This document shows, piece after piece, positions 51,921 to 62,791 of a stretch of 64,000 bases of DNA (the first letter of the stretch is position 1; each line of letters starts with the position of its first letter). Made by a program: the position numbers and the translations under genes. The stretch is from Mycolicibacterium celeriflavum. GTDB taxonomy: Bacteria; Actinomycetota; Actinomycetes; Mycobacteriales; Mycobacteriaceae. Below the pieces are notes generated by a model. It did not search any database. It had not been told where the DNA came from and saw only the letters and a program-made list of their open reading frames with translations. Where the stretch lies: contig NZ_AP022591.1 of NCBI RefSeq assembly GCF_010731795.1, positions 310,001 through 374,000 of the forward strand. The letters are read 5' to 3'.

Positions 51921-52717
51921 TTATTGAGGACGCTCGTCGGGGTGGTCTGGGTCAAGCCGTCCGCCGCGGGTGCGTTGGGGGTAGGACGGTCCTTCGATGA
52001 CCAGGGTGTGGGCGGTGGCGGTCAGCCGGTCGATCGCTGATTGGGCCAGCAGCGTGTCGGCGGTCATGGTCAGCCATTCTGCGGGTTCCCTATTTGAGGT
52101 CACGATGGTGGTTTTGGCGCGGTGGCGTTCGACGATGATTTCGTAGAAGTCGCTGGTCTCGGTGGCATCGAGGGGTCTGAGCGCAAGTCGTCGATGATGA
52201 GGACGTCGGTGGCGGCCAGTCGACGGATTTCGGCGTCGACGGTGTTGTCCAGGCGGGCGGCGCGAAGCCTGGTGAACAGCTTGTTGGCACGGCCGAACAG
52301 GACTGTGTGTCTGCGACGAATGGCCATGTGCCCCAATGCTGTTGCTAGGTGTGTCTTGCCGACGCCGACGGGCCCGAGGACGATCGCGGATTGACCGGCG
52401 TCGAAGAATCGCAGGGAGGTCAGGTCGCCGAGCAGGGTGCGGTCATAGCGCAGCTCCGTTTGCGCGGTCCAGGTGTCGAAGCGCATGCTCGGGTCGAGTC
52501 CGGCTTTGGTCGCTCGTAGTGCGGCTGAACGGGATTCGCGTCGGGAGACCTCGTCGGCGAGTAGCGTTTCGAGGAATCCGATGTGGCTGAGTTTGTGTTG
52601 GCGGGCCAGGGCGGCGCGTTCGGGCAGGGTGTCGGCCAGTGCGCCGAGTTTGAGGGCTTTGAGCAGTCGGGTCAGGTCAGCGCCGACCGGGTCGGCGGGT
52701 GCGCAGTGGGTGCTCAT
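51921..52717 (-). pseudogene. istB: istB, IS21 helper ATPase, frameshifted
   Basis: N-terminal 180 codons (52717 to about 52185) are intact, with Walker A GPVGVGKTHLATALG and Walker B DVLIIDDL. At about 52185-52190 one base is missing (a C in the minus-strand TTGCGC-TCAGACC), after which the frame carrying TSNREPAEWL to the stop at 51921 continues the protein. Together they give the usual 260-residue IstB. The element cannot transpose on its own. Confidence 0.85.
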
Positions 52718-52718
52718 G

Positions 52719-53560
52719 TCAGCAGGTCTCCTCGGAATCGGTAATGGGCACTACGGTCAATGATGTTGGGGTGGTGCTGAATTCGGATGGATCACGAGAG
52801 AAGCGGGTGGCGGTTTGGCCGACTGCCTGTGGTAGTGCCGGGGTGGTGTTCTCGGTGGCGCGTTCCAGCATGGAGACGATCTTGTTGACCGAGACGACGT
52901 CGAGGTCCAGCGATAGTGAACAGGCTTGTTCGACGCGGTCGGCGCCGTAGCGGCGCACCAGCCCTTGGAGCCGGTAGACGGTGCGCATCCGGGTCCAGGG
53001 CAGCGGGTCATCGAGGATGCGTTCGGCGTAGATCCCGATATTGGGCCCGTGTGCAGCACAGGTGGCGATCAACGCCGCCAGGTCCCGCAACGCGTAACCG
53101 GCCTTGTGTTCGGGCAGATCCTCACGGTCGGTGCTGCGGCCACCAGGTGGTTGGCGGGGATGGACTTTCACCAGCGTGCCGCGACGATAGAACTTGACCA
53201 GCTCACTGTCGGCGCGGACGTCCAGCGTGGTGCCGATCCACTGCTCGGGCAGCGAAAACAGGGCTTTGGCGACCTCGGCGTGCCGATCCGGGGCCACCTT
53301 CGGCTGCGTCCAGACCGGAATGTCGAACACCGCCTCAGGCACCGGCTTCAGCGCCGGGAGTTCGTCGGCGACGAACACCCCGGTCGGGACGTCACCGGGT
53401 GGTGCCATGGATCCGCATCCCCGCGGCATCGCGATACCATCGCTCAGCACGACGGCGACAGTCATCGAGATCCCGGAAGTCTTCTCCGGCAAAGAAATCG
53501 ACCGCACATAAGACACCATGCGTTCCACCCGCGGCTTATCTTTCGGTTATCCGGCTAATC
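52719..53560 (-). pseudogene. istA: istA, IS21 transposase, truncated and frameshifted
   Basis: Only the C-terminal part remains. From KDKPRVERMVSYVR (about 53560) the frame breaks for some 40 codons: another frame reads FFAGEDFRDLDDCRRRAERW, typical IstA. The continuing frame VFVADELPALKPVP to EETC is intact. The DDE catalytic domain upstream is missing. It ends 1 bp before istB. Confidence 0.8.
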
Positions 53561-53596: not shown

Positions 53597-53896
53597 TCAG
53601 CGTTGGGGCTTGCGGAGGCGGCGTAATTCTTCTTCGTGGCGGCGGACGGTTGCGGCGACGGCCTCCAGTGCGGTACGGAGGTGCGCGGTTTCAGTGGTGA
53701 GGCCCGTGAGGGTGTGTGCTTCACTGCCGCGGGTGCGGTGTTCCTCGATGATGGTGCGCAATTCGGGGTTGCGGTAGAGGGTGGCTCGCCCTAGTCCGGT
53801 GCGCTCGGCGACCTCGTCGAAGGTGACGGGTCGCCCGCTGAGAATGATTGCGGCACAGCGTCTTTCGACGTGTTGGCGGCGTTTTTCGCCCGTCAT
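53597..53896 (-). CDS. DUF6262/TnpC-like helix-turn-helix protein (remnant element)
   Basis: 99 residues. A DNA-binding helix-turn-helix (TFDEVAERTGLGRATLYRNPELR near residues 24-46) is followed by a coiled-coil-like C-terminus (EAVAATVRRHEEELRRLRK). Such small genes follow recombinase genes in Tn554-like elements. It overlaps the end of the truncated recombinase by ATGA, the same arrangement as at 56092-56095. Its target DNA is unknown. Confidence 0.7.
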   Translation of the reverse strand: MTGEKRRQHVERRCAAIILSGRPVTFDEVAERTGLGRATLYRNPELRTIIEEHRTRGSEAHTLTGLTTETAHLRTALEAVAATVRRHEEELRRLRKPQR

Positions 53897-54392
53897 CCGG
53901 TTTGAGCCTGACTGATGTGGGCATCGAGGCGTTCGATGAGTCGGCGGTGACGTTCGGCTTCCCTGTCCAGCCGCGGGCTTCGGCGTCGCGGGCCAGTGTT
54001 TCGGTGTCGGCGCGCTGGGCGGCCAGGACGGGCAGGTAGCCGGTGTCGGTGCGGAAGTTGGGGCAGTGCTCGCAGATGTTGGCGTAGGCGCACGGGCCTT
54101 GGACTTGGGCGCGGATGCAGAAGCCGCCGGCGAGGCGGGCCTTGACCGCGGGCGCGTGTTTCCAGTCGCCGTCGACGATCGGCAGTTGGGCGCGGCCCTG
54201 AGGCGGGTCGGCGGGCAAGGTGCCCAGGTGGGCTTTCGCGGCGGTCAGGGCACGCTCGTATTCGGTGCGCACGGTCGAGTCAAATAGCCGCCCGTAGCGC
54301 AGGCTCATCTCGGCCGAGACGTGGCCGAGCAGAGTCATCAGGCTTTGCAAGGAGACGCCGGCGTTGACCAGAGCGGTGGCATAGGTGTGTCT
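53893..54392 (-). pseudogene. C-terminal fragment of a tyrosine recombinase, frameshifted
   Basis: From codon RHTYATALVNAGVSLQSLMT (starting about 54392) this is the second half of a recombinase catalytic domain: Arg/His box, GHVSAEM His box and catalytic Tyr in LRYGRL. A C-terminal Cys cluster (GGFCIRA, GPCAYANICEHC) looks zinc-binding. Near 53960 the frame shifts and ends EAERHRRLIERLDAHI to the stop at 53893. Nothing recombinase-like precedes the Arg/His box. Confidence 0.75.
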
Positions 54393-54419
54393 TGTCTCCG
54401 CAGTGACCGTGTGCGGTCG

Positions 54420-54540
54420 GGTTCATGTTGCGATTGAACTCGGGCGATTCTGATGCCTGGTTCGCAATGTGATTCGCCGAGTGTGTGGCGATAAAGGACG
54501 GCTCGCCTGTGACGGATGTCACTGTGGTGAGTTCGGGTCA
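54420..54540. repeat. Copy 1 of ~121-bp element-end repeat
   Basis: About 70 percent identical to 55519-55639, in the same orientation, with shared cores CTGATGCC, GGCTCGCCT and GTGGTGAG. Copy 2 lies directly behind the tnpC-like gene, so the pair probably marks element ends. Confidence 0.65.
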
Positions 54541-54572
54541 TAAGGCGACATATGACTCCGGTCGGCACGTCG

Positions 54573-55379
54573 CTATCCCGATTGGTGTGACTTCCTCGCA
54601 GGGTCATGCGTTTCGAGCCACGTGTGGATTCGTTCGGCTGCGGCTGCCCATCCAGGGTCGAGCATCATGTCGTGCCCCATGTCGGGAAACAGTTCTGCCT
54701 CGGTGCGGTATGCGCGCGCCGTTGCGCGCACTTCCCTTTGGAGGATGCAGCGGTCGAGTTCCGCGCCTAAGACAAGCAAGGGCGTAGTCACCCGCTTCGG
54801 TCTGGGCAACATCCACATCGTGTCGAGTGCAACTCTCTGGCTCTCACCGTTGAGTCGCGCGGTGTATCTCACGACGTCCGACTCGGGGGTCTGCGGCGAG
54901 AAGAAGCTTTCGCGGGCAAGCTCAGGGGTACCGACGGGGAGTAATGCGTTGCCCGTAATCAGTCCTTTTGTGGCCAGCCACGGATGCCGTCGTGTCAGGC
55001 GCATGTTGAATGCGAAGCTTCCGCGCTGGGGTGCGGACGCAATCAGAACGGCGGCGGGCGCTTGGTGAGTCTCGAGGTACTTCTGCACAATGAAGCCGCC
55101 CATCGAATGGCCGATCAATATAGGCGTTGTGGGCAAGGTGTCGGCGACTGAGTCAACGTCGTCGAGGTAGTCGGCGAGGGAGCAGGTGCGGAGGGGCTTC
55201 AGTGAGGGGCTGTTTCCGTGGCCGCGGAGGCTGACCGCGAGGGCGCGGTAACCCTTGTCGGCGAAGAAGTCCAAGAAGTGTTCGTCCCAGCACCATGCGG
55301 CGTGCCAGGCCCCGTGGACGAAGAGCAGTGGTACGGGGTGGGATTCACTGCATGCCCCTTTGTCGATCACCTCGAGCAT
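54573..55379 (-). CDS. Alpha/beta-hydrolase, passenger gene
   Basis: 268 residues from the ATG at 55379 (MLEVIDKG), with AGGAAAGG upstream. Oxyanion motif LLFVHGAWHAAWCW near residue 17, nucleophile Ser in GHSMGGF near 90, Asp in VLGAELDR near 212 and His in DMGHDMM near 238: the triad is complete. No signal peptide; esterase or lipase-like activity. It lies between two copies of a 121-bp repeat, as a passenger would. Confidence 0.82.
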   Translation of the reverse strand: MLEVIDKGACSESHPVPLLFVHGAWHAAWCWDEHFLDFFADKGYRALAVSLRGHGNSPSLKPLRTCSLADYLDDVDSVADTLPTTPILIGHSMGGFIVQKYLETHQAPAAVLIASAPQRGSFAFNMRLTRRHPWLATKGLITGNALLPVGTPELARESFFSPQTPESDVVRYTARLNGESQRVALDTMWMLPRPKRVTTPLLVLGAELDRCILQREVRATARAYRTEAELFPDMGHDMMLDPGWAAAAERIHTWLETHDPARKSHQSG

Positions 55380-55518
55380 GACCCTGCCTTTCCTCTGTGG
55401 GACAACAGTCGCCGACGACTGTCGGCCGGAGGTTAGCTGCGACAACGCTGAGAATAGCTTCTGGCCAGGCAATAGACGGCCCGAATTGCTCACCCATCTT
55501 TTCGCGCGGTCGCCTTGA

Positions 55519-55639
55519 GGTTCGTGTCGCGTTTGATCACGGCCGACCCTGATGCCCGGGTTCACAGTGCTGTTTGGCGCGCGTATTGCGACGAGGGCGG
55601 CTCGCCTATGACCGATGCCGGTGTGGTGAGTCCGGGTCA
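55519..55639. repeat. Copy 2 of ~121-bp element-end repeat
   Basis: Same orientation as 54420-54540. Its last three bases are the stop codon of the tnpC-like gene, so it is the region directly downstream of the recombinase operon. The 139 bp from here to the hydrolase start hold no gene. Confidence 0.65.
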
Positions 55640-56095
55640 GCATGGGCCGATGAGCTTCTGCCGTGCTCGTGGTAGGTGGGTGACCTTGACGTTCGCATCG
55701 GTAAGGGTGCGAAGCCGCTCGATCTCTTCGTGTTGCGCGGCGAGTCGCGCAAGCGCCCGGGTTCGGAAGTCGGTGAGCTCACCGATCGTGGTATTCGCTT
55801 GCGCCAGGCGGTGTCTGAGCTTGTCGACCTCGGTGTTCAGTCGCTCGATCTGCGCCGCTTTCGGGTCGGGTGTCTGGCCGCAGTTCTGCAGCTGTTGTAG
55901 CCGGTCTTCGAACTCAGTGCGTAGATGGGCGTAGGGGCGGGTGCCGTAGAAGGCGGTGCGGTCGACGCCGGCCTGCGAAGCGAGGGTCTTAATGTCGCAG
56001 TTCCCGCCGGGTGGGATCTCTCCGCGCAACAGCCGGTCCATGGCGGCCCGGATGCGGTGCTCGGTCTGGATGCGTTGGGCAGCACTGATTCTCAT
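55637..56095 (-). CDS. DUF6262/TnpC-like protein, last gene of recombinase operon
   Basis: 152 residues; its ATG overlaps the stop of the third recombinase. A helix-turn-helix (DIKTLASQAGVDRTAFYG near residue 35) is followed by a long coiled coil (KAAQIERLNTEVDKLRHRLAQA and on). This matches TnpC-type accessory proteins of Tn554-like transposons, which steer orientation and efficiency of transposition. Length and HTH agree with that family. Confidence 0.75.
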   Translation of the reverse strand: MRISAAQRIQTEHRIRAAMDRLLRGEIPPGGNCDIKTLASQAGVDRTAFYGTRPYAHLRTEFEDRLQQLQNCGQTPDPKAAQIERLNTEVDKLRHRLAQANTTIGELTDFRTRALARLAAQHEEIERLRTLTDANVKVTHLPRARQKLIGPC

Positions 56096-58290
56096 GACGG
56101 GTCCTCGCTGGCGGTGGGTGTGGTGGCGGCATCAATGTCGGCGATGACCCGCTGGGCGCGGTTGTAGTCGGTGGTGAGGCGGTCGCGTTCGGTGACGCGG
56201 GTCTTGCCGAGTTGGCCGAGGAAAGTCTTGGTGCGTTCGGCGTGCTCAGCCCAGACGGGTCGGTGGACGGCGTGGTGGGTGGCCTGCGGGCAGCGGGCGG
56301 AGTCACACATGCCGATCATCGGCCGTGTCGCGTTGGGAGTGCCGGCCAGTTTGAGGCAGAGTGCGCGGGATGGATCGGTGAACCAGCAGTAGTTCGCCGG
56401 TCCTAGGTGCAGGACCTTGGCGCGTTTGGACAGCAGATTGAGGATGTCGCGGTCGTTGCGCTGGACTTTGGGCCCCGCGGCCGATTCGGCGTTCAGGTCG
56501 GCGTCGACTGCGGCGAAGAAGTCGGTGAGGTTTCGTGCGCCGGGTCCGGCGGGCAGGATGCCGTCGCGGTAGTTGTGGAACTCGGCCAATATCAGCTTAA
56601 GGTTGCGATCTGCTTCGTGCTTGTTGACCTCGGCCAGCAACTCGGCTTGAGCACCGCCCGGGCGGGCGGCGTAGCCTTCGGTTGTTGCGGTCGCGATATG
56701 TTTGAGCTGCAGTTTTGCCGCGAGAACCCCGGCTGGGCGGTATGCCAATTCCAGCGCGATCGTTCTTCTGAGCATCCGCAATGAGACTGGTCCCTCGGGG
56801 ATCGCGGCCAGGCCGAGGCGTTGTCCTGCCGGGGAGTTGACCCAGTTGCGGAACCAGATGGTGCGGACGCGGAAGCTGAACCGGGACAACAGAAGAACAC
56901 CTTCGCGGGGATCGTCGTGCAGTTGCTCGATGAGTTCGACCGCGCGGAAGGCGGGTTCGATGACGACCCATTCATCGTCGGTGCCGCCGAGCGGCTGGCC
57001 CTTGACGATCTTGCTGGCGATGCGGTAGCGGTTGAGCCCGGGTATGGGTTCCTCGATCGGGCGGCGGCAGCCGACGCGCAGTTCCATCAGTTCGCTGCTG
57101 CGCATCCCTGATGAAGCCGAGAGCACGATGATCGCGGCTGTTCGGACGACCCCGACCACGGCGACGGCCTGCGAGCGGTGCAGCGGCAAGCTCCAGGGCC
57201 TTGTCGCGCCGTCGGCGGTCGGCGCGTCTTCAGCGTTGCGCGCGAAGACCTTCTCGACTCCGACCGCGGCGAGGGCGTCGGTGAGCGGTCCGCGCAGTCG
57301 CGGCATCCAGCGGGACTCGATGTTTCGGCGGCCGGCCTGCCTGGCCAGAATTCCGGTGGCGACCGGCAACAGTGGGTCGTCGGCCGAGCATCCTGCCGCC
57401 AGTCTTTTGGTGATGTCATGGTCTTCGTGTTGGGGCAGCGGCGTGCCGGTCGTGGTGTAGCCGGCCAACACGGCGAGGATGTCGTCGACGGGTTCCGAGG
57501 TGATGGGACGCAACCCTTCGGCCCTTGCCGAGTGGAGCCGGTCGTGTTCGCGGATCTGCTGGTTCAGATTCACTGCGTGTGGGCCGAGGATCTGCACCAG
57601 GTGCAGCGCCGCCGCAAGCATCGGCTGCAGGATCTCGTCGGCGACGGCGGGGGTGGTGTTTCCGTCACGGCCGGAACGCATTTCGGCGACGGCGGAGGCC
57701 GATGCGCCGCCCCAGGGCCGAAGATCGGCGCGGACGCGGTCGGCGGTGAACAGGTCTCGGTAGTTGACCAGGTCGACGACGATCTGAGCGGCAGCGCGTC
57801 GAACCGCGGGGCTTTGTTCACCGACGACGTTGCCGTTCTCGTCGAGGATGTAGCGGCGGAATGCCAGGTAGGCCTCGCAGGTGTGGGTGTCGACCTCGGC
57901 CAGCGTGGCGGCGTGTCGGCCGTCGAGCCAGCGGAAGAATCGGGTCAGCTCGTGGAGCCGCCCGATGCAGCTGCGTAGATGCAGCGGTGTGCGGTATGCC
58001 CTGGGCAGTTCGGCGACGGCGGGATGTCGCGGGCAGAGGGCGGCGATGATCAGCTCCTTGGCGACCAGGCGCCATCGCGGGTCGCCGATCACGGCGAAGT
58101 CGAAACGGCGGTTCACCAAGGGGATTTGGACCGCCAACCCGACGACCTCGGTGAAGTCCCATAAGTCGTCGTCGAACAGCGGGCGGCGAATGCCGTCGGG
58201 TAGTGTCAGACCCGCCTGCAGACAGACATCGGCGCCGGTGAACGGTGATGGCCGCTGTTCGTCGGTGCTGTCGGCGGCGAAGGTGGTCAT
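56092..58290 (-). CDS. Tyrosine recombinase 3 of trio (TnpB-like, with Cys-rich tail)
   Basis: 732 residues from the ATG at 58290 overlapping the previous stop. Catalytic residues are present: Arg in SGMRSSELMEL (near 430), Lys region SKIVKGQP (near 465), Arg in RMLRRTIALE (near 550) and His/Tyr in LKHIATATTEGYAA (near 578). A Cys/His cluster near the end (CWFTDPSRALCLK, CDSARC) probably binds zinc. The longest member of the unit, and the likely TnpB counterpart. Confidence 0.82.
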   Translation of the reverse strand: MTTFAADSTDEQRPSPFTGADVCLQAGLTLPDGIRRPLFDDDLWDFTEVVGLAVQIPLVNRRFDFAVIGDPRWRLVAKELIIAALCPRHPAVAELPRAYRTPLHLRSCIGRLHELTRFFRWLDGRHAATLAEVDTHTCEAYLAFRRYILDENGNVVGEQSPAVRRAAAQIVVDLVNYRDLFTADRVRADLRPWGGASASAVAEMRSGRDGNTTPAVADEILQPMLAAALHLVQILGPHAVNLNQQIREHDRLHSARAEGLRPITSEPVDDILAVLAGYTTTGTPLPQHEDHDITKRLAAGCSADDPLLPVATGILARQAGRRNIESRWMPRLRGPLTDALAAVGVEKVFARNAEDAPTADGATRPWSLPLHRSQAVAVVGVVRTAAIIVLSASSGMRSSELMELRVGCRRPIEEPIPGLNRYRIASKIVKGQPLGGTDDEWVVIEPAFRAVELIEQLHDDPREGVLLLSRFSFRVRTIWFRNWVNSPAGQRLGLAAIPEGPVSLRMLRRTIALELAYRPAGVLAAKLQLKHIATATTEGYAARPGGAQAELLAEVNKHEADRNLKLILAEFHNYRDGILPAGPGARNLTDFFAAVDADLNAESAAGPKVQRNDRDILNLLSKRAKVLHLGPANYCWFTDPSRALCLKLAGTPNATRPMIGMCDSARCPQATHHAVHRPVWAEHAERTKTFLGQLGKTRVTERDRLTTDYNRAQRVIADIDAATTPTASEDPS

Positions 58291-60011
58291 GCGGTGCGTT
58301 CCTCTGGGCGAAGGGGTATCTCGTCGTCGGTGTCGGTGACTCGGGAGGCCGCGGTCGTGAGTTCGGCGGGGTCGAACCGGCCCAGGATCTGGTCGATCCG
58401 GGCGGCGTAGGGCCCGAAGACAGCCATGAAGTGCGCGGCGGGCATCTGCTGCCATTGGCGGGAGAAGAATGCCTTAAGCCGCAACAGGTTCACCGCGTGC
58501 CGTGGCGCGAACACTGCCAGCGGGCAGAGCAGGCAAACCCACGGCCTGGCCGGACACGGTTTGCCGACCGGACCGTGCAGCCCGGCCAGCTGATCGCCGC
58601 ATGCTGCGGTGAACACATCGCGCGCGCCGCCAACCAGTTCGGCGATGGCGTGGTCGTCGAGATTCATTGCCGCCACCAGTTGTGGGTAACCGTCGACCAG
58701 TGCGGCGGCGTCCTCCTCGGTGATCACCGCGGGCGGATGCGCACGGCGCAGCAGATCGTGCTGGGCATCCTCGATGACCGTCTCGACCGCGTGCTGTTGG
58801 CCCGCGGTCGTCACCGACAGGTAGTGGTCGCCCTCAACGGCGGGCGTGTGGTTGGGGTCGATCGTGGCCCGCGCGTTCCCTGTCCAGGTCTTCTTCTCGC
58901 GCATCGCGTGGTGAGTGGTGCGGATGCGTGCTCGATGGATCTTCAACGGTCGGCCGTCGGCGCCGAGTAGGCCGTGGCGCCCGACCCATCGTTGGACGCC
59001 GACGCGGTCGATCTCGCGGATGAGGAAGGGTTTGCCGACGTAACTCAGGCCCAACCACAGCCGGTCGCGGTCGGCGGGTGCGACCAGGCCGCGCAGCAGC
59101 GACGAGTGCGACAGCCACTGCTCGAGCAGCCGGACCGCCGGACGGGGCAGGTTCAGGCTCTCCGCCGCGGTGCGGCGTTTGACGTAGGACAGCAGCACGG
59201 TCGAGTCCCCGGCCCATTCGATGTCATCGACCCCCAAGTCGGCGATGCCGTCGGGGACGATGCCGGAGTAGACGCCGAACAGCAGCCGGTAGGCGATAAC
59301 GACATCCAGGTGCGGGAACACCGCCCGCAGGGCGTCATAGAACGCTGGTGGTCGGCGATTGTGAAACACGCTGTGCGTCACGCCGATCGCGCGGGCGAAT
59401 ACCGGAGTGCTGACCGGGCCGAGTCGTGCCAACAGCCAGCAGAAGTTCTCCCACGTCCAGCCGGACTCTCGCGGATCACCACCCTGCTCGGTCGCGGCCA
59501 GCGCGCGGAGGTGCACCGCATATGACTCATCCACGACCTGGCTGCAGGCAGTAATGAGACGCTGCCATTCGACCTCGAGATAGGGCGGCAGCGGCCGACG
59601 AAAGGGCTGGAGATTGAAATGCCGACCCGCCGCCAGCTCCAGCACTCCGTCGCCGAGCGTGCCGCCGGACCGGGCGAATCCCTCCACCAGTGCGCGGGTA
59701 AGCGCCTCCAACCGTCTGGGTCCCGCCATCCAGAACTGCGCGAGCTGTCCGCGGCGCAACTCTCCCGCGCCACCGATGAAACCCTGCTCGGCTAGTGCGC
59801 GAACCATCGCCCGCAGAGCGCGCGCATAGGCGTCGACCGTGCCGGCCGAGTCGGCGCTGCCGTGCGGATGAATCAGCTCCACCAGTCCGACGGCCAGATC
59901 ACGCGCCAACCGAGGGTTCGGCAACCCCGCCAGATCGAACTCCGCCCGGCTGCCGTCACTGAACACACAGCTCAGGCCCAGCGGTTCGTCGGTCACCCTC
60001 GTCGGCATCAC
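58287..60011 (-). CDS. Tyrosine recombinase 2 of trio, degenerate active site
   Basis: 574 residues; GTG at 60011 overlaps the preceding stop, with an ATG one codon later. The fold resembles a recombinase, but the first catalytic Arg is replaced: the box reads VYSGIVPDGIADL where TGxR is expected. The Arg/His box (IHRARIRTTHHAM near 395) and a Tyr (EGDHYLSV near 428) remain. A Cys cluster CPARPWVCLLCP follows (near 520). Probably a structural or regulatory partner of the other two. Confidence 0.72.
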   Translation of the reverse strand: MMPTRVTDEPLGLSCVFSDGSRAEFDLAGLPNPRLARDLAVGLVELIHPHGSADSAGTVDAYARALRAMVRALAEQGFIGGAGELRRGQLAQFWMAGPRRLEALTRALVEGFARSGGTLGDGVLELAAGRHFNLQPFRRPLPPYLEVEWQRLITACSQVVDESYAVHLRALAATEQGGDPRESGWTWENFCWLLARLGPVSTPVFARAIGVTHSVFHNRRPPAFYDALRAVFPHLDVVIAYRLLFGVYSGIVPDGIADLGVDDIEWAGDSTVLLSYVKRRTAAESLNLPRPAVRLLEQWLSHSSLLRGLVAPADRDRLWLGLSYVGKPFLIREIDRVGVQRWVGRHGLLGADGRPLKIHRARIRTTHHAMREKKTWTGNARATIDPNHTPAVEGDHYLSVTTAGQQHAVETVIEDAQHDLLRRAHPPAVITEEDAAALVDGYPQLVAAMNLDDHAIAELVGGARDVFTAACGDQLAGLHGPVGKPCPARPWVCLLCPLAVFAPRHAVNLLRLKAFFSRQWQQMPAAHFMAVFGPYAARIDQILGRFDPAELTTAASRVTDTDDEIPLRPEERTA

Positions 60012-61477
60012 AGCTCCTCGTCGATGTCGTCATCGAATTCGCCGTCAGCTTCCCGCTGTGCTGCCGTACCGTCGACGAGTCCGGCTGCCGCGCCTTCGGT
60101 TTCGTAGGCTTGCCGGTAAATCCGGGTTGTATCAAGACGTTTCAGGTATTTCTCGGTGGTTAGCACGGTCGAATGCCCGAGCAGATCGCGCAGCACCAGC
60201 AACGGGTCGGCCTTGGTCAGATAGAAGATCAACGCCGCGTCGGCGTCGGTGTCGCGCACCAGCTTCGCCGCCTGCCGGTAATAGCCGGTCACCAGATACT
60301 CCAAGGTCTGCATCGAGAAGCAATGACGAAGCCGGTGCGGGTGAACGTGCGGGAACCGTGGCTCGAACCTCGCGCGGATCCGGTCGGCGGTGCGCTCGAA
60401 CACCGTCGCCCACGCTGTGAACGCGCCACCGCCGGTCTTGACCGCCAGCAGGCACGACCCGCCCTCCGGTGCCACCAGCCGCCGCCGCTCGGCCGGGGTC
60501 AGCGACTCCCACGACCGGCGAACACCGTTGATCCGGCCGCCGCGTGCGTCCGGGTCGCTCACCGTCAGCGGCTCGCCCCATCGCTGCGGCGGCCGCCAGG
60601 CCGATCCTTCGGTCGCCGCGGCGCGGTCCAGCTGCAGGTAGTCGTGCAGCCCGGCCAAGGCGTCGTAGGAGATCCAGGTGGTGCGGAACTTGCGGCCCTT
60701 GGTGATTCCCGCCGGCACCGGAAACGGGATCGGGATGGCCGTTGGCGCAGGCGGCAGCGCCGGGATCTCCCACGGCAGCAGGTGGGTGAACTCGCCCAGC
60801 CGCAGCCCGGTCGCCAACGCTAGATCACCGACCGCGGCGTTGCGGGTCATCTCCCTTCCCGCGAACCCGGTGTCTGGGCTGCCGTCCGGCGCCAAACCCC
60901 GCAGTCCCTTGCGGAACAGGTCGATAAAGTCCGGCTCCAGATACTTCACGGTCACATGCGGTTTCGGAGTGCGGCGCACCGCCAGGTTCACTCGTACGTC
61001 CCGGCCGGTGCCGGCGAAGACCGCACGCGCCGACCGGTAGGTGAACGGTTCGGCCGTTGCATGTCCTTCGTCGAGCGCCCACCGGTAGAACAGCGACAGG
61101 ATGCTCATGTGCTGCGCCCACGTGGTCGCCGCGAACCGGCGAGCCAGCGGCCCAGCCGCTCGGTGCTCAGCGTAGCGGCTTAACCCGGCCTTCAAACGAT
61201 CCCGCGAATCAAACAGTCCCACACCATGTTCCGCCAAGAACTCAGTCCACTCCTTGACCGCCCGCGCATAGCTCTCCCACGAGCTCGGCGCCGGCGCGCC
61301 ACTGGCCGGCAACTCGCGCAGCCACCGGTTCACCACCGACGCCGGCCGCGGTCTGCCCGGACCGTCCTCCAGCAACAAGTCGTCATCAATCAGATACGGC
61401 ATGCTCTCCGGAATCACCGGCCGGTGCTCGACACCCCAGGACCGCCAGCCCTGCGACGAGAAGAAGCTCAAGATCAC
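60008..61477 (-). CDS. Tyrosine recombinase 1 of trio (TnpA-like)
   Basis: 489 residues, first gene of a four-gene overlapping operon. N-terminal SAM-like DNA-binding domain (SWESYARAVKEWTEFLAEHG near 70), catalytic Arg in ATGLRLGEFTHLL (near 232), Arg/His box HPHRLRHCFSM (near 385), and His and Tyr in LLGHSTVLTTEKYLK (near 440). The full set suggests an active enzyme. Start chosen at the first Met after a stop; about 100 bp separate it from the broken recombinase upstream. Confidence 0.83.
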   Translation of the reverse strand: MILSFFSSQGWRSWGVEHRPVIPESMPYLIDDDLLLEDGPGRPRPASVVNRWLRELPASGAPAPSSWESYARAVKEWTEFLAEHGVGLFDSRDRLKAGLSRYAEHRAAGPLARRFAATTWAQHMSILSLFYRWALDEGHATAEPFTYRSARAVFAGTGRDVRVNLAVRRTPKPHVTVKYLEPDFIDLFRKGLRGLAPDGSPDTGFAGREMTRNAAVGDLALATGLRLGEFTHLLPWEIPALPPAPTAIPIPFPVPAGITKGRKFRTTWISYDALAGLHDYLQLDRAAATEGSAWRPPQRWGEPLTVSDPDARGGRINGVRRSWESLTPAERRRLVAPEGGSCLLAVKTGGGAFTAWATVFERTADRIRARFEPRFPHVHPHRLRHCFSMQTLEYLVTGYYRQAAKLVRDTDADAALIFYLTKADPLLVLRDLLGHSTVLTTEKYLKRLDTTRIYRQAYETEGAAAGLVDGTAAQREADGEFDDDIDEEL

Positions 61478-61567
61478 GAGCGGTCACACTAGAAACGCCA
61501 CACGCCGTCATGCAACAACCAAACGCGCATGCCGCCTGACCCTTTCGAGCTAATCGCAACACGGGAA

Positions 61568-62791
61568 CTAAGCGGGGATAAAATGCCTCAGCATGTGGGG
61601 ACGGCACCACAACGGCGTACCCCCCTCTTGCGCAAGCGCTTTCGCAACCCTGGTGTTCGCGCGGTCGAACGTCTTGTACCAGGAGTGTTTAGGGCGAGGT
61701 GTCCCGTCGTGATTCAGCCACAGCCACATCGGTTCCAGGCCATCACGTCCCCGGCGGAACAACTTCATTCGTGTCGACGGCCCGAGTGCATCGAGCCGGA
61801 CCGTACGACGCGATCCCGTCGCATCAACGACCTCCAGTTGCCCATCCCGGCGAACATGTTCAACGACCAATCGATCCGCAATCTGCCCATAGCGACCAGC
61901 ACGTTGCGCGCGTGCTACGGCAGCAGTGCGACTACCTTCCTGCAGATAGAAGTGAACTTGTTGGGCTACGCGGCGCCGCATCCAGAACGCTCGCCCGCTA
62001 CCACCCTTCGCGCAATGAGACGCAACGCGCGAACGCACGAGCCCCTCAGAGCCCGGCTTGGGCACCTCGATGGTTAATATGCTGGCCCACTCGCCGATTC
62101 GTAAACCCGTCCCGAACAACCCCTCCGCGAATGCGATGTCGCGATCCTCAGTCGCTCCCCGCCAATCGTGGCGCGGCACGCCCTCCATCGTGAAACCACG
62201 CAACCCCAGGTTCCGCCACAACCGAAATGCTTGTGGGGTAAGCCACTTCACGTCGGCCCTGCGCATCCCCGACGGAGTGCTCTCCAACACGACTTGGCCA
62301 CCGCCCATCCAAGACGTGGCAATCACGCGGGCTCGGACGGGGTTGTCGATTCCGTGCTGCTCGGCCGCCCACGAGTAGAAATTGCGGATCGCCGCGCGAT
62401 CGACACAGAAACTATTGGCGGTCACGTGCTGAGGATTCTTCTCAGCCGACAACCGCCACTCCTTGAACGCAGCCAGTTCCGATCGCGACGCCTGATCCCA
62501 TCGAACGCCCATCGCGTGCAGAAAATCCAGCCACACCTTCAACGACAAGGCGTAACGACGCAAAGTCCCCGTTGCTCGTCCCCTCACCAGCGGATCTCGC
62601 CAGTAGGCGTTCACCAACGCATCCGCCCGGCCCCACGGATCCAGGAAGAACGGAGTGCTATCACGCGCACCATTTCGCTTCGCCCGGGACTCGACATCAC
62701 CCAACCCTGGAACCACGTCGTCCACCGATACGAACCGCTGACGGAAATCGTAGAAATGAAGAGTCCAACCATCAGCCGAAGCACCAGCCAT
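61568..62791 (-). pseudogene. Tyrosine recombinase truncated after the Arg/His box
   Basis: 407 codons. N-terminal core-binding domain (LRRYALSLKVWLDFLHAMGV near 80) and catalytic Arg in GTGLRIGEW (near 230) are normal. The frame ends at CRPHMLRHFIPA: the HxxR box is there but the His box and the catalytic Tyr that should follow some 40-60 codons later are missing. The break is at about 61583, so the gene is inactive. Confidence 0.8.

Follow-up and report, generated by a model that had tools for sequence, protein, structure and literature searches.

We analyzed a 64,000-nucleotide stretch of the Mycolicibacterium celeriflavum genome (contig NZ_AP022591.1, positions 310,001 to 374,000; hereafter the window), in which four overlapping open reading frames, A, B, C, and D, occupy positions 55637..61477. 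Together they form the operon of an element of 7,190 bp (54393..61582). Its two ends exactly abut Arg-His codon pairs that belong to the HxxRH active-site motifs of two further tyrosine-recombinase genes, and we consider it likely that the element moves by copying itself out as a circle that recombines into such codons. Judged from the flanking sequences, a position at the active-site codons of other tyrosine-recombinase genes is a near-rule within the clade of this element. By its gene order and ends, the element is a variant, with an apparently new target, of the type known as GInt (Genomic Island with three Integrases, ginABCD; PMC5385486) and SE (strand-biased circularizing integrative element; PMC10214605), and is neither a RIT nor a Tn554 element. 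The element, its ends and genes, and the genes that it interrupts all read on the minus strand. Related loci are referred to by L or G numbers, and published systems are described from excerpts of the cited papers.

Ends of the Element and the Interrupted Genes

Both ends of the element are present in the window, and their motifs are common to relatives in unrelated sites. On the left, upstream of gene A, the clade of the window copy has TTGTCTC(C/T)GCTTAG; on the right, the elements end with a common 23-base motif whose last bases are CTGCGGA(G/C)ACAAG. Comparison with these relatives fixed the ends at 54393 and 61582; a sequence-only reading of this DNA had proposed comparing occupied and empty sites for this purpose. 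Around a 6-bp core, the ends carry 10-bp inverted repeats that are imperfect, matching on average at 8.3 of 10 positions in 23 elements. In the window, the left repeat TTATCCCCGC (61572..61581) is complementary at 8/10 positions to the right arm GCGGAGACAA (54392..54401). The right (3') end (54393..54545) has a GC content of 57%, compared with 67% in the window and 60–62% in three cargo-free elements. Such cargo-free elements (8 of the 23 measured) are 6.09–6.10 kb long. In one relative (L093:5429-5900), a right end is followed at once by an apparent left end and, 276 bases on, by a second right end, giving a tandem of ends.

The left core of the window copy, AGGCAT (61583..61588), encodes the Arg-His with which ...RPHMLRH ends where the left gene is interrupted, and homology to an uninterrupted M. 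chimaera gene ends at this point. The adjoining 5' part of the interrupted recombinase gene (61589..62791) is gene A of another four-gene unit, with 82% nucleotide identity to a unit on an M. chimaera plasmid (L038). The latter (L038:3373-9210) belongs to another lineage and has all four frames open and a very divergent second protein. The right core, AGACAC (54387..54392), represents the Arg-His codons before TYATALVNAG, which read CGCCAC in all four uninterrupted relatives (L049-L052). The right flank opens with RHTYATALVNAG. It is the 3' piece (53721..54386) of a Tn554-like TnpB gene that the element interrupts, 83–86% identical in nucleotides to L049-L052 and frame-shifted downstream, where matches are split between frames. 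This piece is the separate fragment near 54 kb that had been noted earlier; it belongs to the interrupted gene and is no member of the operon. The right-hand gene at L060 is of the same kind. The window copy was probably once located in TnpB, its original left flank having been lost later by deletion or by recombination, which may have taken place between two copies.

A Recurrent Target: HxxRH Codons of Tyrosine-Recombinase Genes

To characterize the target, 36 loci of the clade of the window copy with a readable flank were picked by hand, and motif and reading frame were judged by eye. Nine loci in or near the clade whose flanks were hidden by a contig end or a broken gene were left out (L064, L072, L074, L076, L084, L087, L094, L095, and L101). 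The 36 loci represent 29 distinct sites, 27 of which fall within the HxxRH motif of a tyrosine-recombinase gene, at its pair of Arg-His (or Arg-Arg or Arg-Lys) codons; the exceptions are L086 and L103. The left motif in L079 requires a one-base shift, and the first motif place is Y or R instead of H in 4 of the 21 recombinase sites readable on the left (L066, L092, L085, and L089). In L086 and L103 the arms are altered too (left TTCTCT; right AAAGAA or AGAGAA), and arms and target may change together.

The flanking pieces of ten sites were also compared with Pfam. Nine of ten left pieces match PF00589, every one of them ending at profile position 134, and eight of ten right pieces match the same family, all starting at position 133 or 134; these matches have E-values of up to 0.01, several being below the Pfam cut-off. 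PF00589 was found in neither the left piece of L066 nor the right pieces of L081 and L034. Some elements lie in gene A or gene C of another four-gene unit, as on the left side of the window copy and at L039, L089, and L104. A recombinase gene interrupted at this point is cut off from its catalytic tyrosine and would be inactive.

Phylogenetic analysis by a quick method of 88 B proteins (78 of them different) placed all 32 recombinase-targeting rows in one 42-row clade with an SH-aLRT support of 99, together with eight rows of unknown target and two of other target; L106 and L137, which are in the site count, have an incomplete B and are not in the tree. Three changes of target suffice for the whole tree. 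Elements of sister clades end, as judged by eye, at other codons, one annotated case being a major facilitator superfamily (MFS) transporter gene at L036; the label "other" for sister-clade rows was likewise given by eye, without a Pfam check. In a sister clade in Streptomyces (L036, L123, L125, and L127-L131) the left end follows codons reading YL, and it is the L036 flank that is annotated as the transporter.

A search of the literature (open-licence PubMed Central text) found no report of HxxRH codons as the target of such elements. In the excerpts of the description of actinobacterial Tn554-like elements (PMC3414803), no recombinase gene is named as target site. A published case described as "inserted within the integrase" is an integron and was rejected as unrelated.

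Organization and Conservation of the Four-Gene Operon

All four genes are open in the window: A (60008..61477; 489 aa), B (58287..60011; 574 aa), C (56092..58290; 732 aa), and D (55637..56095; 152 aa). For gene C, position 58290 was taken as the start, since the listed start at 58455 falls within B. The three junctions are 4-bp overlaps (GTGA, ATGA, and ATGA), in agreement with the compact arrangement that the sequence-only reading had reported. Among ten related loci inspected, several have TGATG without GTGA at the A/B junction, indicating that the 4-bp overlap is not constant. The genome of the window contains one full copy of gene A. It also has a second, distant four-gene-like unit near 3.92 Mb (L047, G000:C1:3910001-3930000), whose A and C are ~26% identical.

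A genome scan with an alignment of B detected 148 relatives in named genomes. Among the best 80 of these, all actinobacterial, matches to A, B, C, and D occur in order at 68 loci; one or more of the matches are missing at the remaining 12, several of which are at a contig end or broken by an insertion. The same gene order was found in all six actinobacterial plasmid regions with a gene table (Streptomyces, Nocardia, Microbacterium, and M. chimaera among them), and more distant units of this order are present on plasmids of Sphingobium, Agrobacterium, Paraburkholderia, and Klebsiella, those of Sphingobium and Agrobacterium having no small D annotated directly after C. The unit is thus a self-standing recombinase system, little described as had been suggested, and the refuting case of a gene order not conserved elsewhere does not hold. 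The nearest relative of the window copy is L060 in M. novocastrense, which has a B protein 98% identical.

The product of gene A contains a Phage_int_SAM_1 (integrase SAM-like) domain above the Pfam cut-off, whereas PF00589 was matched below the cut-off only. It has the complete R-K-HxxR-H-Y set of a tyrosine recombinase, and these residues are the same in all 64 distinct sequences compared, among them that of the window. The large recombinase C has R-K-RxxR-H-Y: R, K, the second R, H, and Y are each present in 60/60 distinct sequences, and Arg replaces the first His in 59/60. B has Val at the place expected for the first catalytic Arg, which is absent from 72/72 sequences, and Lys and Tyr are each retained in 72/72. 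No Pfam family was matched by B or C, so that their earlier description as tyrosine recombinases rests on conserved motifs, supplemented in the case of B by a weak structural match to the recombinase fold (Foldseek, best E-value 0.89). Profile comparison gave no significant support for B as a recombinase, and searches of PDB sequences with A and with the B and C alignments returned nothing. B is likely a tyrosine-recombinase-fold protein that has apparently lost the first catalytic Arg.

The C-terminal Cys residues noted earlier were confirmed: the CPARPWVCLLCP cluster of B is invariant in nine of nine aligned sequences, C has conserved Cys residues at its C-terminus, and the 54-kb fragment has Cys residues of its own. 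The small D protein, which had been called DUF6262/TnpC-like, is conserved in position and has weak DUF6262 and coiled-coil matches. The resemblance stands as a weak one, the DUF6262 score of 14.2 bits being below the 29-bit cut-off, and we regard D as TnpC/GinD-like.

Relationship to Known Systems

GInts share with the present element a four-gene operon at the 5' end that encodes three recombinase-type proteins and a small TnpC-like protein, cargo that begins at the stop of gene D, a short 3' end, and site-specific insertion with imperfect repeats (PMC5385486). The ginABCD-like operon is present here in the same order, as judged by sequence alignment to GInt-like units rather than to a reference Gin sequence: A, B, and C can each be aligned with the corresponding protein of the Klebsiella and Paraburkholderia units, which were called GInt-like by gene order and size. 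Insertion takes place between imperfect direct repeats, the repeat being the 6-bp core here and 10–17 nt in published cases. As to layout, an operon at the 5' end and a short 3' end were observed; the 3' end is only mildly AT-rich, and the cargo-free elements are shorter than 6.2 kb. A further mark of GInts is excision as a circle for which all four genes are required. On the other hand, GInts have been described from ssb, an ABC transporter, and a small number of further targets; it is their third protein that is said to be without the first Arg, and the second one here; and the excerpts of the GInt description do not name Actinobacteria among the phyla (PMC5385486). Moreover, GInt cargo is 2.5–70 kb long, whereas in the present clade only ~0.15–2.6 kb, mostly one gene, separate the D stop from the right end.

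SEs have the same order of a recombinase, a degenerate recombinase-fold protein, a large recombinase, and a small helper, as well as inverted repeats and a 6-bp spacer (PMC10214605). They are further marked by a strand-biased circle that leaves no empty site and by a right end with six donor bases, a pattern that several of our elements may follow. A split attB, inverted repeats at the joint, and the 6-bp spacer were all observed in our elements. However, the second SE protein (Tfp) lacks the catalytic RHRY set, and B differs from it by its invariant Lys and Tyr. SEs were found mainly in Gammaproteobacteria (PMC10214605), and the likeness to them was judged by gene order and ends.

The sequence-only reading had seen a mixture of RIT and Tn554 traits, a view that our comparison does not bear out. 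RIT elements have three overlapping recombinase genes as well, but the archetype proteins are 315–410 aa long, all with the catalytic Tyr, and are encoded by three coding regions only, with 34-bp repeats; three larger proteins and a fourth gene are found here, and RIT membership was rejected for gene number and protein size. Tn554 and the actinobacterial Tn554-like elements resemble our element in a TnpC-like small protein, a 6-bp footprint, and a Cys-rich recombinase tail (PMC3414803). They have two recombinases plus TnpC instead of three, and the Tn554-like gene is here a target of the element; with three recombinase-type genes and a D protein below the DUF6262 cut-off, membership in Tn554 was rejected too.

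Mobility and Possible Mechanism

The element likely moves by itself. Two copies in Rhodococcus koreensis, L063 and L080, lie in different recombinase genes but agree at all 6,086 bases, implying recent movement in this species; strain DSM 44498 has at least four copies of 6.1 kb. Six Mycobacterium genomes (helveticum, parascrofulaceum, WUMAC-067, nebraskense, scrofulaceum, and gordonae; L066-L071) have 10–21 kb around one copy in common at an identity of at least 99.98%, so this copy also rides a larger moving unit, which points to recent transfer. Five contigs (L072, L074, L076, L084, and L087) start and stop within ~10 bases of the element ends. Coverage of L084 is 53x and that of L075, in the same strain, 16x, as would be expected with several copies.

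The cores provide a hint of how movement may occur. According to the rule described for SEs, insertion leaves six target bases on the left side and six donor bases on the right (PMC10214605). In our elements, where native codons are available for a minority of sites, the left cores fit the target wherever this could be judged, and the right cores often carry foreign codons. For example, L073 and L083 have FRR at the left core and SH at the right, and G030 has SR at the right core where the target reads RH in three of three relatives; the window copy has a foreign right core as well. At L063, the right GCAT equals the left of L080, and its own left reads GCAC. We infer that this pattern fits a one-strand exchange into a circle, followed by insertion from the circle. 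In such a pathway, recombinases A and C would swap a single strand between the two ends of the element, with B probably serving as a partner without the first catalytic Arg and D as a TnpC/GinD-like helper. The resulting circle would carry six bases of the left flank at its junction and would recombine with a new HxxRH codon pair, placing the six target bases at the left and the six donor bases at the right.

It is possible, though less probable than copying, that an element with the same target moves by cut and paste, that is, by excision and re-integration that leave an empty site, as in some GInts. GInts are reported to form circles and, in certain strains, to restore the empty site (PMC5385486), copying as such is not visible in sequence, and the several R. 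koreensis copies could stem from transfer. Foreign right cores combined with fitting left cores nevertheless follow the one-strand SE rule and not random repair. A somewhat more doubtful explanation concerns the window copy only, which could be a dead relic assembled by recombination among decaying mobile elements. Its two flanks come from different genes, the TnpB piece is frame-shifted, IS21-like remnants adjoin, and the genome has a single copy. However, its four genes are open, both ends are present, and it is 95% identical in nucleotides to L060 over 6.1 kb, with proteins 94–98% identical.

The remaining explanations have little to recommend them. Relationship of A, B, and C to the GInt-like units of Klebsiella and Paraburkholderia plasmids would agree with a GInt or SE proper that entered a recombinase gene by chance, in a clade without any special target; this is improbable given a single codon pair at 27 of 29 sites in different recombinase genes and sister clades that end elsewhere. 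Homologous recombination or gene conversion between recombinase genes would explain why both flanks are such genes, but hardly why one codon pair recurs across many different genes beside constant element ends, and we regard it as very improbable. That ordinary phage integrases clustered here by chance is next to negligible, as four-gene order and ends are conserved and gene A had no match in 50,697 phage records, for which reason a phage origin was rejected.

Possible Implications for Other Mobile Elements

In our estimation, the balance is even on a broader proposal, namely that this GInt/SE-type clade uses the active-site codons of tyrosine recombinases as its landing site and is thereby a parasite on mobile elements that sterilizes their integrases, its right end carrying the codons of the previous victim. 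Conserved codons of active sites are also where homing introns and inteins are known to insert. A recombinase-driven element would do likewise, its targets being genes for the same class of enzyme that it encodes. As every tyrosine-recombinase gene must keep these codons, sites would be available in almost any plasmid, phage, transposon, or island that bears an integrase, including the element's own kin. The clade would then act as a natural brake on other mobile elements and may account for part of the broken integrase genes in actinobacterial genomes. In addition, the right core would be a record of past hosts, and the many naturally solved target sites could be used for testing the GInt/SE mechanism.

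Cargo and Neighboring Genes

The cargo of the window copy is an alpha/beta hydrolase gene (54573..55379, minus strand; Abhydrolase_6, E-value 1.5e-28), whose start was set at MLEV; a similar hydrolase is the cargo in L060. Based on the longest open reading frame, most of 20 cargo-bearing elements apparently have a single gene between D and the right end. Ten cargo proteins were compared with Pfam and all ten were matched: an alpha/beta hydrolase, a mycothiol-S-transferase, two AAA_33 P-loop proteins, a NUDIX protein, a 2-phosphosulfolactate phosphatase, a phosphoesterase, a methyltransferase, an AadA_C-like protein, and a HAD protein.

In the window and L060, the cargo is flanked by a decayed inner right end and the outer right end. 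The inner copy in the window (55519..55640, minus strand; D3 repeat 85%) begins at the stop of gene D. The doubling has a z-score against shuffles of 34 in the window and 42 in L060, and no clear signal was found in the other 20 of 22 elements, where the highest values (3.0 in L077, 2.7 in L096, and 2.1 in L081) are all under the best shuffle. As it is clear in only these two elements, the doubling reflects local history and no general rule, and we rejected it as a general route of cargo capture.

Outside the element, the interrupted TnpB gene is adjoined by a TnpC-like DUF6262 gene (53597..53896, minus strand; 33.5 bits, above the cut-off). The IS21-like remnants at 52100-53528 consist of a shortened IstB gene and a C-terminal piece of a Mu-type transposase.

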